DNA of 20,797 nucleotides from a virus. The notes under the pieces are model-generated. The model was not told where the DNA came from. It worked only from the letters and a program-made list of their open reading frames with translations, and did no database searches. The position numbers and the translations under genes were made by a program. Location: positions 1 through 20,797 of IMG/VR virus record IMGVR_UViG_3300045020_000028; one strand, written 5' to 3'. Numbering within the stretch: the first letter of the stretch is position 1; each line of letters starts with the position of its first letter. Below, one piece after another: positions 3,083-17,063 of the stretch.

Positions 3083-3874
3083 TTAGCTCCCTGCGGGTGT
3101 CCAACCGGATATGCCGATCGGATTGCTATAGCCGTTGCCGCCATTCGCCGCGCTCAAGATGCTGCTGAGTGCGTAGCTGTTGCCAGCATTGCTCACGCTG
3201 CTGCCCAGTGCGTTCGCGGCGCCCACCGTGCCAGCCGCTTCCGACGCGCCCGCGCCCGCCGTAGCCTGTGCCACGCCCGTGGCGAGCTGTGCGCCGGTAT
3301 TGCCGAGGTTGCCGGCGGCGTTCTGGCCAAGTCCCGCGATCGTGGACAGGCGGCTGAAAATGTTGTTCTGCTGCGTTTGCTGGGCGTTCAGATTCGTCGT
3401 GTATTGGCTTTGCGCCTGATTGAAATAGTTGTTGTAGTACTGCTCGGCATTTCCAGTGGCGTAGTTCGTCAACGCTTGCAGCGTCGGGCCAGAGAGCGCA
3501 CCCACATTCGGCGCGAGCGCATTCTGGGTCTGCTCGAGTCCCTGCGTTTGCGAGAACTGGTAGCCGGGTGAACTGGTGATGCTCGCGGGGTTGAAGGAAA
3601 ACGGTCCAGTCGTTTGCGTGAGATAGCCGTTCGGCAAACCACCCGCGCCGGCGCCGCTCGTGAGGCCGAGAAGCTGCTGTAGCGATGTCGTCGCGCCCTG
3701 GCCCGCAGTGATAAACGGCTGCTCCTGCTGCGTGACCGTGTTGAATTCCTGCTGTTGGATATTGGCAGCCTGCTGCTGAGCGCTCGCCTGCGTATTGGCA
3801 GCAGACATCGAGCCGAGTGCACTAATTCCACCTCCAACGACAGCCCCTCCGGCTATTGCTGCTGCTACGCACAT
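3083..3874 (-). CDS. Ejection protein / DNA transfer protein, P22 gp7-like by position
   Basis: The product has 263 residues (P22 gp7 has 229). The N-terminus is hydrophobic with a glycine-zipper pattern (AAIAGGAVVGGGISALGSM, residues 4-22), followed by a Gln-rich helix (QASAQQQAANIQQQEF). Residues about 53-115 contain FITAGQGATTSLQQLLG and SSPGYQFSQTQGLEQ, a pattern I recall from phage DNA-transfer proteins. The C-terminal third is low-complexity Ala/Gly/Asn. The start is supported by a near-perfect Shine-Dalgarno sequence, GGAGGTGA, ending three bases before the ATG, and the reading frame overlaps the end of the GNAT-like gene by 10 bases. The role in DNA ejection is inferred from this sequence type and the two larger ejection genes that follow. 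Confidence 0.65.
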   Translation of the reverse strand: MCVAAAIAGGAVVGGGISALGSMSAANTQASAQQQAANIQQQEFNTVTQQEQPFITAGQGATTSLQQLLGLTSGAGAGGLPNGYLTQTTGPFSFNPASITSSPGYQFSQTQGLEQTQNALAPNVGALSGPTLQALTNYATGNAEQYYNNYFNQAQSQYTTNLNAQQTQQNNIFSRLSTIAGLGQNAAGNLGNTGAQLATGVAQATAGAGASEAAGTVGAANALGSSVSNAGNSYALSSILSAANGGNGYSNPIGISGWTPAGS

Positions 3875-14070: not shown

Positions 14071-14414
14071 AGCTCGCTCCTGAATGCTTCCGCCCATTCG
14101 GTGTATCGAGAAGACGGAACGCGCATCAATTCTCCCCATGGCGCAGTTATATTCATCATGTGATCCTGTGCCAATCTGTGGATCATTTGAAGTCTGGGAT
14201 TACCGCGTCGTTTCGCTGAACGTTCCAAATCCTCGATGCTGCGTTCCCATCCCGTTAAATTACTGTCAAACATTCCGCCGGCTGGAATCAAATCAGGAGC
14301 ATCGAGAGATGCATCGTAAACAATCTGGATGCCACTTTTCACCATTAGTTCTTTATTCGAAAAGAATTCGTCGATGTAGTAATCACTGCACTCCACGAAG
14401 CTAGATTTCATCAT
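14067..14414 (-). CDS. Hypothetical protein between terminase and portal genes, AT-rich
   Basis: The product has 115 residues from the ATG that overlaps the terminase stop (ATGA); an ATG four codons upstream would add MDAD. Visible text: SFVECSDYYIDEFFSNKELM, IQIVYDASLDAPDLIPAGGM, GWERSIEDLERSAKRRGNPR, and AQDHMMNITAPWGELMRVPS. It is acidic and probably alpha-helical in the second half. Codon use is much AT-richer than in the flanking terminase and portal genes. That suggests recent acquisition at this junction, as for moron genes. I do not recognise the family, and no catalytic motif is evident. Confidence 0.6.
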   Translation of the reverse strand: MMKSSFVECSDYYIDEFFSNKELMVKSGIQIVYDASLDAPDLIPAGGMFDSNLTGWERSIEDLERSAKRRGNPRLQMIHRLAQDHMMNITAPWGELMRVPSSRYTEWAEAFRSEL

Positions 14415-16672
14415 GTCCGCATCCATCCTGTGCCGCCGCTGCGGCGAATGATTCGTTGCTGCGGCTCCGGCTTCGCTTCTTCGCGCTTTGCGAGCTGCGG
14501 GAACAGGTCAGCAAAACCCCAGATCATGGCGTCGGCACGGTTCGGGCTGTTCTCGCCCATGTAGCCATTGGTCGTGAAAGCGCAAAGCTCGTCCTCGAGT
14601 TCCTGAAAGACGCCCGCCATGCGAACCTTGCCAGTCTCGACGAGCGCGGAGATCGGCTCCGCCCGCACAACCTTGCCCCGCGAGGCTCGCACCGGCCGAA
14701 ATGGCGTGTTCGGGCGCGCCGCCTTAACGACGAATCCGACCATGGCGCCGCCAAAGTTCACTTCGGCCACGATACGATCGGCTTCCCATCGTTCAAAAGC
14801 ATCGCATGCCACTCGTCCCCAGACGCCAGGGCCAGCTTTACAAGTGAGGTCTTCGAGCACATAGCCATTTCCATCAATCCCCAGTCCGCATACAACGATG
14901 CCAATTTCATCATTATCGACATTGTCTGTATCGTCGGCACCGCTCGGATCAACAGCCACGACGATGCGCAGCATGTCGGGTAGTTCCTGATCGATATTTC
15001 GCCACTTCTCGATCCAGTCATCGCGGAATAGAGCATTCGGAGCTGCATCGCGAAACTCCCCATAGAGAAAGCGCTTGCGCAGGCGCTCGGGCAGTCCTTC
15101 GAGCGTTTTCAGGTATTGCTCGGATAGGTTCGCGCGGTTGTCGCCCGGGTTGATGCGGAAAAAGTCATAGTCCCGCTGGTCGAGCGCGTGGCGCGTCTCC
15201 GGATCCTGCAGGAGCTTGAACATCTTGTAGGTCCAGTGACCCTTGTCCGGCGGGTTCTCGTCGTAGTACATCTTCAGGCGCAGCGGCTGGCCGGTCGCGC
15301 GATCCATCACCTTTTGCGCGAGACGCGTGACGGCCATATTGCGACTGTTGTAGGGGATCTGGCTGCACTCGTTGAGGAAGATATCCGCATACTCGTTGCC
15401 GAGAATCTTTTCGACGCGCGCCGCATCATCAAGGCCGCCGAACCAAAGCTCGGAATTGCCGGGAAACGTGGCGAACATGGTGTCTGATTTGTTCAGCGCA
15501 TATTCGACGCCCGGAAAGCACAAAGCCATGACCTTCGGGAATGTGTCCATCACGATCGACTGCTTCACGTGCCCGGCACGAAAGCGCAACACCACGCCGC
15601 GCGAGCCTGGAGCCTTCAGGCGTCGCTGAATCTGCTTGCGGATGATCTGGAACGTCTTGCCGCTATTGTGATGAAGAATGCCATTGGCGAAATATTGCTC
15701 GGTCACGGGAACATGGAGGGTGTAGTATTCCTGCTCGGCGACTTCCGATATACTCAAGACCTTATCCAGCGTATAACCGCCAATGGCAGGAGTGTCATAT
15801 GAAAGACCGAAGAATCGGGAAAATCGGTAAGCAGAACCATCTGCTAGTGATCGAATGGATCGTCGCAGGATGCACGGCACTCGACATTGCGGATGTTCTC
15901 GGCGTGAATCCTGAAACAATCCGCAAGTTTGCAAGGAAGCGTGGTCTTCAGATTCAGCGAGTCGATATGAGCGGAGAGAATCATCCTTGCTGGGCCGGAG
16001 GAATGGTATCCGATCGGTCAGGCTACCTCCTTCGCCGCGTCGCCGTTGATGGCCCTTATGGCTATCTGATCCGAGCCCTGCAAAAACGAGGCGTCGCCGG
16101 CTCAGACCCGAATGGATATGCCCCTGAGCATCGGATAGTGATGCATGACCAACTCGGCAGGCCTCTGCTGCCTGGAGAAGTGGTAGATCATATCGACGGA
16201 GACAAGCGAAACAATGACCCATCCAATCTTCGAGTTTTCCCATCCAACGCCGAACACCTACGCGAAACGCTGAAGGGGCGCGTTCCGAACTGGACTCAAG
16301 AAGGTCGCGCGAAAATGACCGGACGGCCAGTTGATCCGAACAGCGCAAATCAGAGGCGACTTGCCAAGTTGAGCCAGTCCAAAAACGATGATCCGGCGTC
16401 ACCGTCACCGAACGACCTGAACTCAGATCAATCTTGAGCATGGCTGCACGCCCCTTTAAAAAAGGGGCATCTGCCATCTGCTCGCCTCGGCTTGTCATCA
16501 CCCGAACAGGAAGGCCAATAGCGGCCAACTCCGCGATAGTCAGGCGTTGCCCGTCTAGCATGGTATCGCCTGACACGCAGCGCGATCCGCCAGCAAGCAT
16601 CACGTGCGTGGCCGGCCCGTTCAAGACCTCCTGAGCCTCTTCCTGCTTGGCGGTAAGCTTGAATTCAGCCAT
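14411..16672 (-). CDS. Terminase large subunit (packaging ATPase-nuclease) precursor, interrupted by an intein
   Basis: The precursor has 753 residues: 31 of N-extein, 305 of intein and 417 of C-extein. The joined product would be 448 residues, normal for this family. Splicing rebuilds the Walker A P-loop GGSRSGKT (G28-R31 joined to S337-T340). Walker B is YADIFLNE at 428-435, with E435 as the catalytic Glu. The C-terminal RNase H-like nuclease shows AVDPSG (D575), VAEVNFGG (E637) and NRADAMIWGF (D714). The protein pumps DNA through the portal and cuts concatemers at the capsid. Unspliced precursor cannot have a working ATP site. The ATG lies inside the end of the small terminase gene (8-base overlap). 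Confidence 0.92.
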   Translation of the reverse strand: MAEFKLTAKQEEAQEVLNGPATHVMLAGGSRCVSGDTMLDGQRLTIAELAAIGLPVRVMTSRGEQMADAPFLKGRAAMLKIDLSSGRSVTVTPDHRFWTGSTWQVASDLRCSDQLAVRSFSRDLLESSSERAPSAFRVGVRRWMGKLEDWMGHCFACLRRYDLPLLQAAEACRVGHASLSDAQGHIHSGLSRRRLVFAGLGSDSHKGHQRRRGEGGSLTDRIPFLRPSKDDSLRSYRLAESEDHASLQTCGLFQDSRREHPQCRVPCILRRSIRSLADGSAYRFSRFFGLSYDTPAIGGYTLDKVLSISEVAEQEYYTLHVPVTEQYFANGILHHNSGKTFQIIRKQIQRRLKAPGSRGVVLRFRAGHVKQSIVMDTFPKVMALCFPGVEYALNKSDTMFATFPGNSELWFGGLDDAARVEKILGNEYADIFLNECSQIPYNSRNMAVTRLAQKVMDRATGQPLRLKMYYDENPPDKGHWTYKMFKLLQDPETRHALDQRDYDFFRINPGDNRANLSEQYLKTLEGLPERLRKRFLYGEFRDAAPNALFRDDWIEKWRNIDQELPDMLRIVVAVDPSGADDTDNVDNDEIGIVVCGLGIDGNGYVLEDLTCKAGPGVWGRVACDAFERWEADRIVAEVNFGGAMVGFVVKAARPNTPFRPVRASRGKVVRAEPISALVETGKVRMAGVFQELEDELCAFTTNGYMGENSPNRADAMIWGFADLFPQLAKREEAKPEPQQRIIRRSGGTGWMRT
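15788..15792 (+). promoter_or_regulatory. Ribosome binding site of the antisense HNH gene
   Basis: AGGAG lies six bases before the HNH ATG (15799), at ideal spacing. On the other strand the same bases fall in the codons for T294-A296 of the terminase precursor, just before intein block F. A possible -10 box TATACT sits at 15749-15754, but no matching -35 element is visible, so I do not call a promoter. The site supports real translation of the plus-strand gene and fixes its start. Confidence 0.7.
15799..16437 (+). CDS. HNH homing endonuclease, nested antisense within the terminase intein
   Basis: The product has 212 residues and is complete. Residues 11-52 form a helix-turn-helix (LDIADVLGVNPETIRKFARK). 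Residues 59-81 (GENHPCWAGGMVSDRSGY) and 110-155 (EHRIVMHDQLGRPLLPGE, VVDHIDGDKRNNDPSNL, SNAEHL) form a classic phage HNH domain. H131 (with D130), N139 or N143, and H153 are the likely metal and catalytic residues. The tail past 160 is polar and probably disordered. Start and frame are supported by AGGAG at six bases and by an intact domain without stops. The gene lies wholly inside the intein: its start abuts block F codons and its end overlaps block B codons. It probably cuts intein-free terminase genes to spread the element. That role is inference; the HNH assignment is strong. Confidence 0.9.
   Translation: MKDRRIGKIGKQNHLLVIEWIVAGCTALDIADVLGVNPETIRKFARKRGLQIQRVDMSGENHPCWAGGMVSDRSGYLLRRVAVDGPYGYLIRALQKRGVAGSDPNGYAPEHRIVMHDQLGRPLLPGEVVDHIDGDKRNNDPSNLRVFPSNAEHLRETLKGRVPNWTQEGRAKMTGRPVDPNSANQRRLAKLSQSKNDDPASPSPNDLNSDQS
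16450..16468. repeat. Perfect 8-bp inverted repeat just after the HNH stop
   Basis: GCCCCTTT, loop AAA, AAAGGGGC forms a perfect stem beginning 12 bases past the HNH stop codon. On the minus strand it encodes intein residues A69-R75 (APFLKG region) between blocks A and B. No T-tract follows on either strand, so it is not a standard terminator. Similar hairpins near free-standing phage endonuclease genes can block ribosome access or protect RNA ends; here this is only a possibility. Confidence 0.5.
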
Positions 16673-17063
16673 GCACGTCCGAACCTTTCAGCACAAGCGC
16701 CACAGGCGCATCCGGATCGCCCGCGTGTGTGACCTTGCTGCCGTATTTTTTCGGATTCATGCAGGCAAGCACCCATTTGCGCGCATCGATCTGCACGCGC
16801 GTCTTTTGCGGGTCGCCTTTGCCGTCGGCGATGTCGATGATCTCGTCGAAATAGTGGTCTGCGCGCAGGCTCATCGCCTCGTTGTATTGTGCCTGGAGCT
16901 TCTCATCGTCTGCCAGCCAGCGCTGCACGGAGCGACGATCGGGCATATCCGCCGCACGGCAGATCTGGCGCAAGCTCTTGCCCTCGGCCATCTGTTCGCA
17001 GATGCGATTGAAGACGGCCTGTGAGAAGGCTATGGGGCGCTTGGTCGGTTGCTTTGTGGCCAT
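16665..17063 (-). CDS. Terminase small subunit
   Basis: The product has 132 residues from ATG 17063, close to the 140 of phage Sf6 gp1. It recognises the phage DNA packaging site and feeds DNA to the large subunit. Residues 14-52 form a helix-turn-helix (SLRQICRAADMPDRRSVQRW). Residues 55-80 (KLQAQYNEAMSLRADHYFDE, then IIDIAD) form the oligomerisation helices, and QIDARKWVLACMNPKKYG at 91-108 is a family hallmark. The end is a short hydrophobic tail. A longer frame adds 37 Arg/Pro/Thr-rich residues that overlap the upstream gene and is rejected. The large-subunit ATG lies inside its last codons, as expected for coupled translation. Confidence 0.88.
   Translation of the reverse strand: MATKQPTKRPIAFSQAVFNRICEQMAEGKSLRQICRAADMPDRRSVQRWLADDEKLQAQYNEAMSLRADHYFDEIIDIADGKGDPQKTRVQIDARKWVLACMNPKKYGSKVTHAGDPDAPVALVLKGSDVHG

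Follow-up and report, generated by a model that had tools for sequence, protein, structure and literature searches.

Anatomy of the Terminase Locus

The DNA analyzed here (the window) spans 20,797 bases of viral sequence, positions 1–20,797 of IMG/VR record IMGVR_UViG_3300045020_000028. Its minus strand carries the precursor gene of a terminase large subunit (TerL) that contains an intein at TerL residues 32–336, splitting the Walker A motif as GGSR|SGKT, and a complete HNH endonuclease gene lies wholly inside the intein on the plus strand (Table 1). These reading frames and their coordinates are as given in a preliminary description made from the sequence alone. All window genes with a PHROGs-assigned function are on the minus strand, and the HNH gene opposes them. 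The minus-strand genes between 3083 and 20101 encode a DNA ejection protein, a head closure protein, the major head protein, a scaffold protein, the portal, the small terminase and a RuvC-like resolvase.

Table 1. Features of the intein-bearing terminase gene and of the HNH gene nested in it
Feature	Position	Strand	Evidence
TerL precursor, 753 aa, intein-bearing	14411..16672	-	Open frame; Pfam Terminase_3 and Terminase_6C; phrog_979, E = 2.3e-64
N-extein, ending ...MLAGGSR (first half of Walker A)	16580..16672	-	Fits GGSRSGKT, uninterrupted in 80 intein-free homologues
Intein, 305 aa, Cys1 to Asn305	15665..16579	-	Pfam Intein_splicing, E = 2.3e-10; edges from empty sites and relatives
Hint splicing domain, N-terminal part, intein aa 1-90, block B T61..H64	16310..16579	-	AlphaFold pLDDT 86-98; intein-type substitution pattern
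Intein linker, most of the HNH gene read antisense	15788..16309	-	pLDDT ~30 (aa 126-235); 0 stops where 6.3 are expected; frame kept open, largely disordered by prediction
Hint splicing domain, C-terminal part, intein aa 265-305, ...YFANGILHHN	15665..15787	-	pLDDT 88-97; conserved in 15 relatives
C-extein, starting SGKT; remainder of ATPase and nuclease domain	14411..15664	-	89% identical to intein-free L003
Shine-Dalgarno-like AGGAG, 6 nt before the HNH ATG	15788..15792	+	Sequence
HNH endonuclease gene, 212 aa, ATG start, antisense inside intein	15799..16437	+	Pfam HNH_3, E = 1.5e-10; conserved in relatives; HNH codon position 3 fastest; AlphaFold mean pLDDT 87
N-terminal helix-turn-helix of HNH protein, aa 11-47	15829..15939	+	Helices 11-22, 27-34 and 38-47 (AlphaFold); Pfam HTH models match family members
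HNH catalytic core EHR..DHIDG..NN..NLR..NAEHL, aa 106-157	16114..16269	+	Pfam HNH_3

The two strands gave significant Pfam matches independently of each other, with HNH_3 on the plus strand and Intein_splicing and terminase families on the minus strand. The intein shows the features of the class 1 type, namely Cys or Ser at position 1, a block B T-x-x-H motif, a C-terminal His-Asn and Cys, Ser or Thr at +1. The splicing blocks had been described as fully kept, and C32 (Cys1), T92/H95 (block B T61/H64), H335, N336 and Ser337 (+1) are indeed present and conserved across the family. AlphaFold predicted the Hint fold of the window intein with confidence, and its closest structures are those of DnaB and RecA mini-inteins (PDB 6frg, 4o1r, 2in8). 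These mini-inteins have a short linker, whereas the linker of the window intein is about 170 aa long and is the antisense of the HNH gene. The earlier claim that the intein has no endonuclease in its own frame also stood in profile searches of the linker: Intein_splicing was the sole Pfam match in 15 inteins.

Two other architectures were considered and rejected. A fused endonuclease is not consistent with Intein_splicing as the only Pfam match in the 15 inteins and with a linker predicted to be disordered. A group I intron was rejected because no ribozyme core, and no group I or group II intron or other Rfam match, was found around the HNH gene in 14300–16800 up to E = 1.

The Nested HNH Gene and Its Product

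The preliminary description had assigned the HNH gene its own ribosome binding site, and a Shine-Dalgarno-like core precedes the HNH start codon in 52 of the 69 relatives examined as well. No sigma-70-like promoter for the HNH gene was detected in a scan of the region, and terminator matches were at chance level. Pfam matched HNH_3 in 31 of 32 family members, and residues H111, R112, H131, N139, N143, N150 and H153 are invariant in the HNH proteins of the 32 members.

The best PDB match of the HNH protein was the homing endonuclease I-HmuI (1u3e), with a profile E-value of 0.0089 and a fold probability of 0.96, though the E-value of the fold match was weak (0.2). The protein shares the HNH_3 core with I-HmuI, its best solved relative, and with phage HNH_3 enzymes. 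Unlike I-HmuI, it has its helix-turn-helix at the N-terminus, its gene is antisense in an intein, and one clade (clade II, below) adds a C-terminal domain that is co-encoded with Hint. Longer HNH proteins (~300 aa or more) with an apparent second N-terminal helix-turn-helix were observed in the group inserted at AGFG sites (L187–L199, L227). In one of these, a prophage of Escherichia coli MEI003 (L227), the annotated HNH start lies 13 bases past the intein, inside the C-extein.

Distribution of the Composite

A search with the HNH protein recovered the same architecture at 59% identity (L001). Scanning with an alignment of HNH proteins matched 179 stretches, from which 80 loci were kept; the family is larger than these 80. 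All 80 overlap an open antisense frame, and the P-loop junction was found by pattern or by inspection in every locus except the contig fragment L201. A search with the intein returned further full-size inteins, inserted in terminases at this same position, and every one of them has a complete HNH gene antisense to it and in the same phase. The sole intein at the terminase P-loop site without an HNH gene was a mini-intein (L108, with two copies). This mini-intein is 155 aa long (L108–L110, 4001–4465, on contigs of up to 96 kb) and contains no recognizable HNH remnants.

The composites collected numbered 106, of which 75 differing by more than 10% (<90% identical) were retained. Inteins with an HNH gene on the reverse complement are therefore represented by at least 75 distinct composites, and the plus-strand frame in the relatives is open rather than filled with stops. 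The insertion lies at G-x-x-[GRA]|[STC][GT]K[ST] in all 75, one of them reading GETG|TGKT. All 75 also use one antisense phase, in which HNH codon position 1 is opposite intein position 1, HNH position 3 opposite intein position 2, and HNH position 2 opposite intein position 3. Cys1 and a Ser, Thr or Cys at +1 are present in 75/75, and the His-Asn end in 74/75.

Besides public viral contigs, the composite is carried by cultured phages, namely Pectobacterium phage Taid with its relatives and Pseudoalteromonas phage PHS3. The MEI003 prophage was the sole carrier among 5426 E. coli genomes. One relative (L224) resides in a non-terminase P-loop ATPase (GGETG|TGKTALATN), helicase/RecA-like by eye, from which the composite appears to have left terminases at least once. 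In genome contigs, the search for HNH protein relatives found none, and the search with the intein alignment gave two weak archaeal matches, both without an antisense HNH gene. A search of plasmids yielded nothing beyond distant partial matches. No clearly degenerate or frameshifted HNH gene was seen, which departs from the usual homing cycle, in a set of which most loci came from the HNH search and which is thereby biased against broken copies.

Two loci have a different intein content. The terminase at L133 (3–2231) apparently contains a second intein besides the P-loop composite, located near the C-terminal part (CLVAGT...VHN|CDAM), and no antisense HNH gene was noticed there. A P-loop intein (..NHN|SGKS) at L145 (2933–7228) belongs to a frame of 1432 aa that includes a long in-frame insert, and may be an ordinary fused-endonuclease counterpart.

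The public annotation of several composites differs from the reading given here. In E. coli MEI003 (NZ_CP071263.1; L227, 1397–3802), RefSeq records an incomplete pseudogene beside an annotated antisense HNH gene, and the full 801-aa frame is open. The GenBank terminase of PHS3 (L118, 1029–3155) starts at 2204, omitting the intein and the N-extein, and the open frame starts near 3155; its HNH gene is annotated. The terminase of Taid is recorded as a 754-aa 'hypothetical protein', and its HNH gene is unannotated.

Empty Sites and Movement of the Composite

When terminases related to that of the window were compared at the insertion site, 80 of 80 homologues from viral contigs were found to read through it without an insert (GGSR|SGKT or close). 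Since these homologues are insert-free and the closest of them (L003) shares 89% identity in the C-extein, the insert is exact and was either recently gained here or often lost in the lineage of the window. The joined exteins of the MEI003 terminase match an intein-free terminase of E. coli at 92.4% identity. Related terminase DNA is present in 781 other E. coli genomes, and the two terminases read were both intein-free.

The composites of Taid and PHS3 share 49% identity in HNH and 55% in Hint, whereas their terminase C-exteins have no significant similarity. The same pattern of similar elements in dissimilar exteins was observed when L129 was compared with L131 and L132. Because intein-free terminases 89–92% identical to occupied ones exist and similar composites occur in unrelated terminases, the composite moves as a whole between unrelated genes that share little beyond the Walker A motif. 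The distances of HNH correlate with those of Hint (0.83) and of the exteins (0.72), and since all three correlate, vertical descent within terminase families may account for much of the history. The insertion site yielded no extra DNA motif: third codon positions are no more conserved at occupied than at empty sites.

The distribution also bears on whether the HNH protein could be a packaging factor that works with the terminase and not a homing enzyme, the intein merely hosting it. HNH proteins are linked to terminase function in some cos phages, in which they are encoded beside the terminase genes, and the site occupied here is a P-loop ATPase that is nearly always a terminase. A packaging role is nevertheless unlikely. 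The gene is sporadic, with one E. coli genome carrying it against 781 others with related terminase DNA, and the insert is absent from all 80 close homologues. The HNH protein most resembles I-HmuI, the gene is tied to the insertion site and not to the neighborhood, and one copy is found in an ATPase that is not a terminase (L224).

Constraint on the Two Reading Frames

The divergence at the three codon positions switches along the element from intein-type to HNH-type and back to intein-type in all three clades. Over the first ~90 and the last ~45 intein residues, substitutions obey the intein frame, with position 3 fastest. Between the Hint halves they follow the HNH frame: intein position 2 (HNH position 3) is fastest and intein position 3 (HNH position 2) slowest. 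By this pattern, the linker between the Hint halves is a passenger whose frame is simply kept open.

Clade II, which comprises Taid, PHS3 and most loci at GPVG and AGFG sites, differs in that its HNH proteins have an extra C-terminal domain encoded opposite the N-terminal part of Hint and reaching intein residue ~10–15. Over intein residues 15–75 of this clade all three codon positions are slow, with position 3 at ~0.24–0.35 compared with 0.6–0.7 elsewhere. Because all three positions are slow there, both proteins are likely to be constrained in clade II; the pattern is as expected if the C-terminal domain of HNH and the N-terminal part of Hint share their bases and are both conserved.

It could be argued that the intein frame is the only gene and that the HNH-like frame is a decaying relic held open by the overlap. 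Homing endonucleases often decay once fixed, as described by the homing cycle, and overlap alone could keep frames open for a while. This explanation is very improbable, since the substitutions between the Hint halves follow the HNH frame and not that of the intein, the residues of the HNH core do not vary among 32 members, and Shine-Dalgarno-like sites are kept in 52 of 69. Just as little credence is given to a functional composite whose antisense gene is mainly regulatory, its transcript damping late terminase expression and homing being secondary or lost. Expression of HNH would unavoidably mean antisense transcription over a late gene, but regulation needs neither a conserved HNH active site nor insertion at the P-loops of unrelated terminases.

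Stop codons were counted in the intein frame under a null model in which synonymous codons were permuted within each HNH gene. For the window alone, the absence of stops under the HNH gene (Table 1) corresponds to P ~0.0004. Across the 75 composites, 0 stops were found against 506.1 expected, and 74 of the 75 genes were individually significant (P < 0.05), a comparison partly conditioned on its outcome as the composites were chosen for an open overlapping frame. A less conditioned set, the 13 distinct full-size relatives from the intein search alone, likewise had 0 stops, and all of its members have an intact antisense HNH gene. The controls (5 free-standing HNH genes and 12 window ORFs) were near expectation and all contained stops; the lowest values were 10 stops against 15.0 in the window C-extein (P 0.008) and 6 against 9.7 in the phiH HNH gene (P 0.03). 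An antisense ORF arising by chance was rejected on the basis of the 0 stops against 506.1 expected and the undepleted controls. A free-standing HNH gene that interrupts a split or dead terminase, with the intein-like frame as a by-product, would suit the RefSeq label of an incomplete pseudogene in MEI003 and the truncated terminase annotated in PHS3, but it is the least credible reading and was rejected, as the frame is open through the whole insert in all members, the Hint domain and splice residues are conserved, and the stops number 0 vs 506.

Comparison With Known Elements

Mobile inteins carry a homing endonuclease fused within their own polypeptide, usually of the LAGLIDADG type and rarely HNH. 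P-loop inteins with LAGLIDADG domains are present in mycobacteriophage TerL, in which the TerL1-a site lies between the Lys and Thr of the P-loop; an antisense arrangement is not mentioned (PMC5050341). The window intein resembles the fused-endonuclease mobile inteins in its Hint domain with Cys1, block B T..H, C-terminal His-Asn and +1 nucleophile, and the mycobacteriophage TerL inteins in its insertion in the TerL Walker A motif, its sporadic spread and its intein-free alleles (PMC5050341). In contrast to fused-endonuclease inteins, its endonuclease is a separate protein of the opposite strand and its linker is the antisense of HNH. The insertion also lies elsewhere in the P-loop, at GGSR|SGKT, than that of TerL1-a (PMC5050341).

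The closest known case is found in nuclear group I introns such as Dir.S956-2 and Dsq.L2066, in which His-Cys homing endonuclease genes lie antisense (PMC9548176). There, as here, a splicing element hosts the gene of a homing endonuclease on its other strand (PMC9548176). In the introns, however, the host is a ribozyme in eukaryotic rDNA and the gene lies in a peripheral RNA loop with no second protein frame (PMC9548176), whereas here both strands encode protein through the same bases, in phages. No intein with an antisense endonuclease was found in the open-licence full-text literature, which omits most subscription papers. The composite appears to behave like a mobile intein in its movement between alleles and species, yet it lacks the fused endonuclease that defines one.

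Proposed Mechanism and Origin

The anatomy, the conservation, the selection on both frames, the empty sites and the transfer as a unit were observed here, and we conclude that the locus is very probably a mobile intein that occupies the Walker A motif of a phage terminase and has its homing endonuclease encoded antisense rather than fused. The pairing proposed from the window alone, in which a splicing-type intein houses a complete HNH gene in antisense orientation, is supported by the selection on both frames and by movement as one unit.

The minus strand would give a TerL precursor composed of the N-extein, a Hint domain split by the long disordered linker (the HNH gene reversed) and the C-extein. 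Judging from its intact catalytic residues, Hint would excise itself and join GGSR to SGKT. The plus strand would give the helix-turn-helix HNH protein from its own start site. The most likely role of this protein is to cut or nick terminase genes with an intein-free P-loop in co-infecting phages, after which repair would copy the whole composite into the cut allele. The splicing, cutting and copying steps are modeled on what is established for inteins and homing endonucleases. As the P-loop represents the most conserved codons of the ATPase, targeting it would provide a wide target range and make imprecise loss lethal. Antisense placement would allow the nuclease to be expressed apart from the late terminase. 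Because both frames share the same bases, a frameshift in HNH would also break TerL; this mutual damage may explain the lack of frameshifted HNH genes, though the searches disfavored broken copies.

That all three clades share the nested orientation and phase suggests one old origin of the composite. The L108 mini-intein groups inside the clade of the window with weak support, and from this position it has probably lost its HNH gene. The composite may have been assembled by entry of a free-standing HNH gene into an already existing mini-intein, as had been proposed from the window alone, or the pair may have formed otherwise. On balance, we lean slightly toward a broader view in which the family is a distinct and ancient class of homing element, with a splicing domain and an endonuclease entangled on opposite strands, a single origin, and spread through the Walker A codons of P-loop ATPases. 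Under this broader view, ~60 codons in one clade specify both the N-terminal part of Hint and the C-terminal domain of HNH, each of them folded, nuclease timing is set apart from the late terminase, and decay by frameshift is blocked.

The composite accounts for a recurrent annotation error, by which terminases are called truncated or pseudogenes (PHS3, MEI003) and HNH genes are missed (Taid). With the composite present in cultured phages and in a prophage of E. coli, where related terminases are numerous, splicing, cleavage and homing are open to direct tests. The elements form a large and widespread family in which, unlike in usual mobile inteins, the two proteins are separated by strand and not by sequence. 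Here nature has placed the genes of two unrelated folded proteins on opposite strands of one DNA segment, in one clade across the splicing domain itself, and the dozens of divergent sequences open the evolution of dual coding to study.
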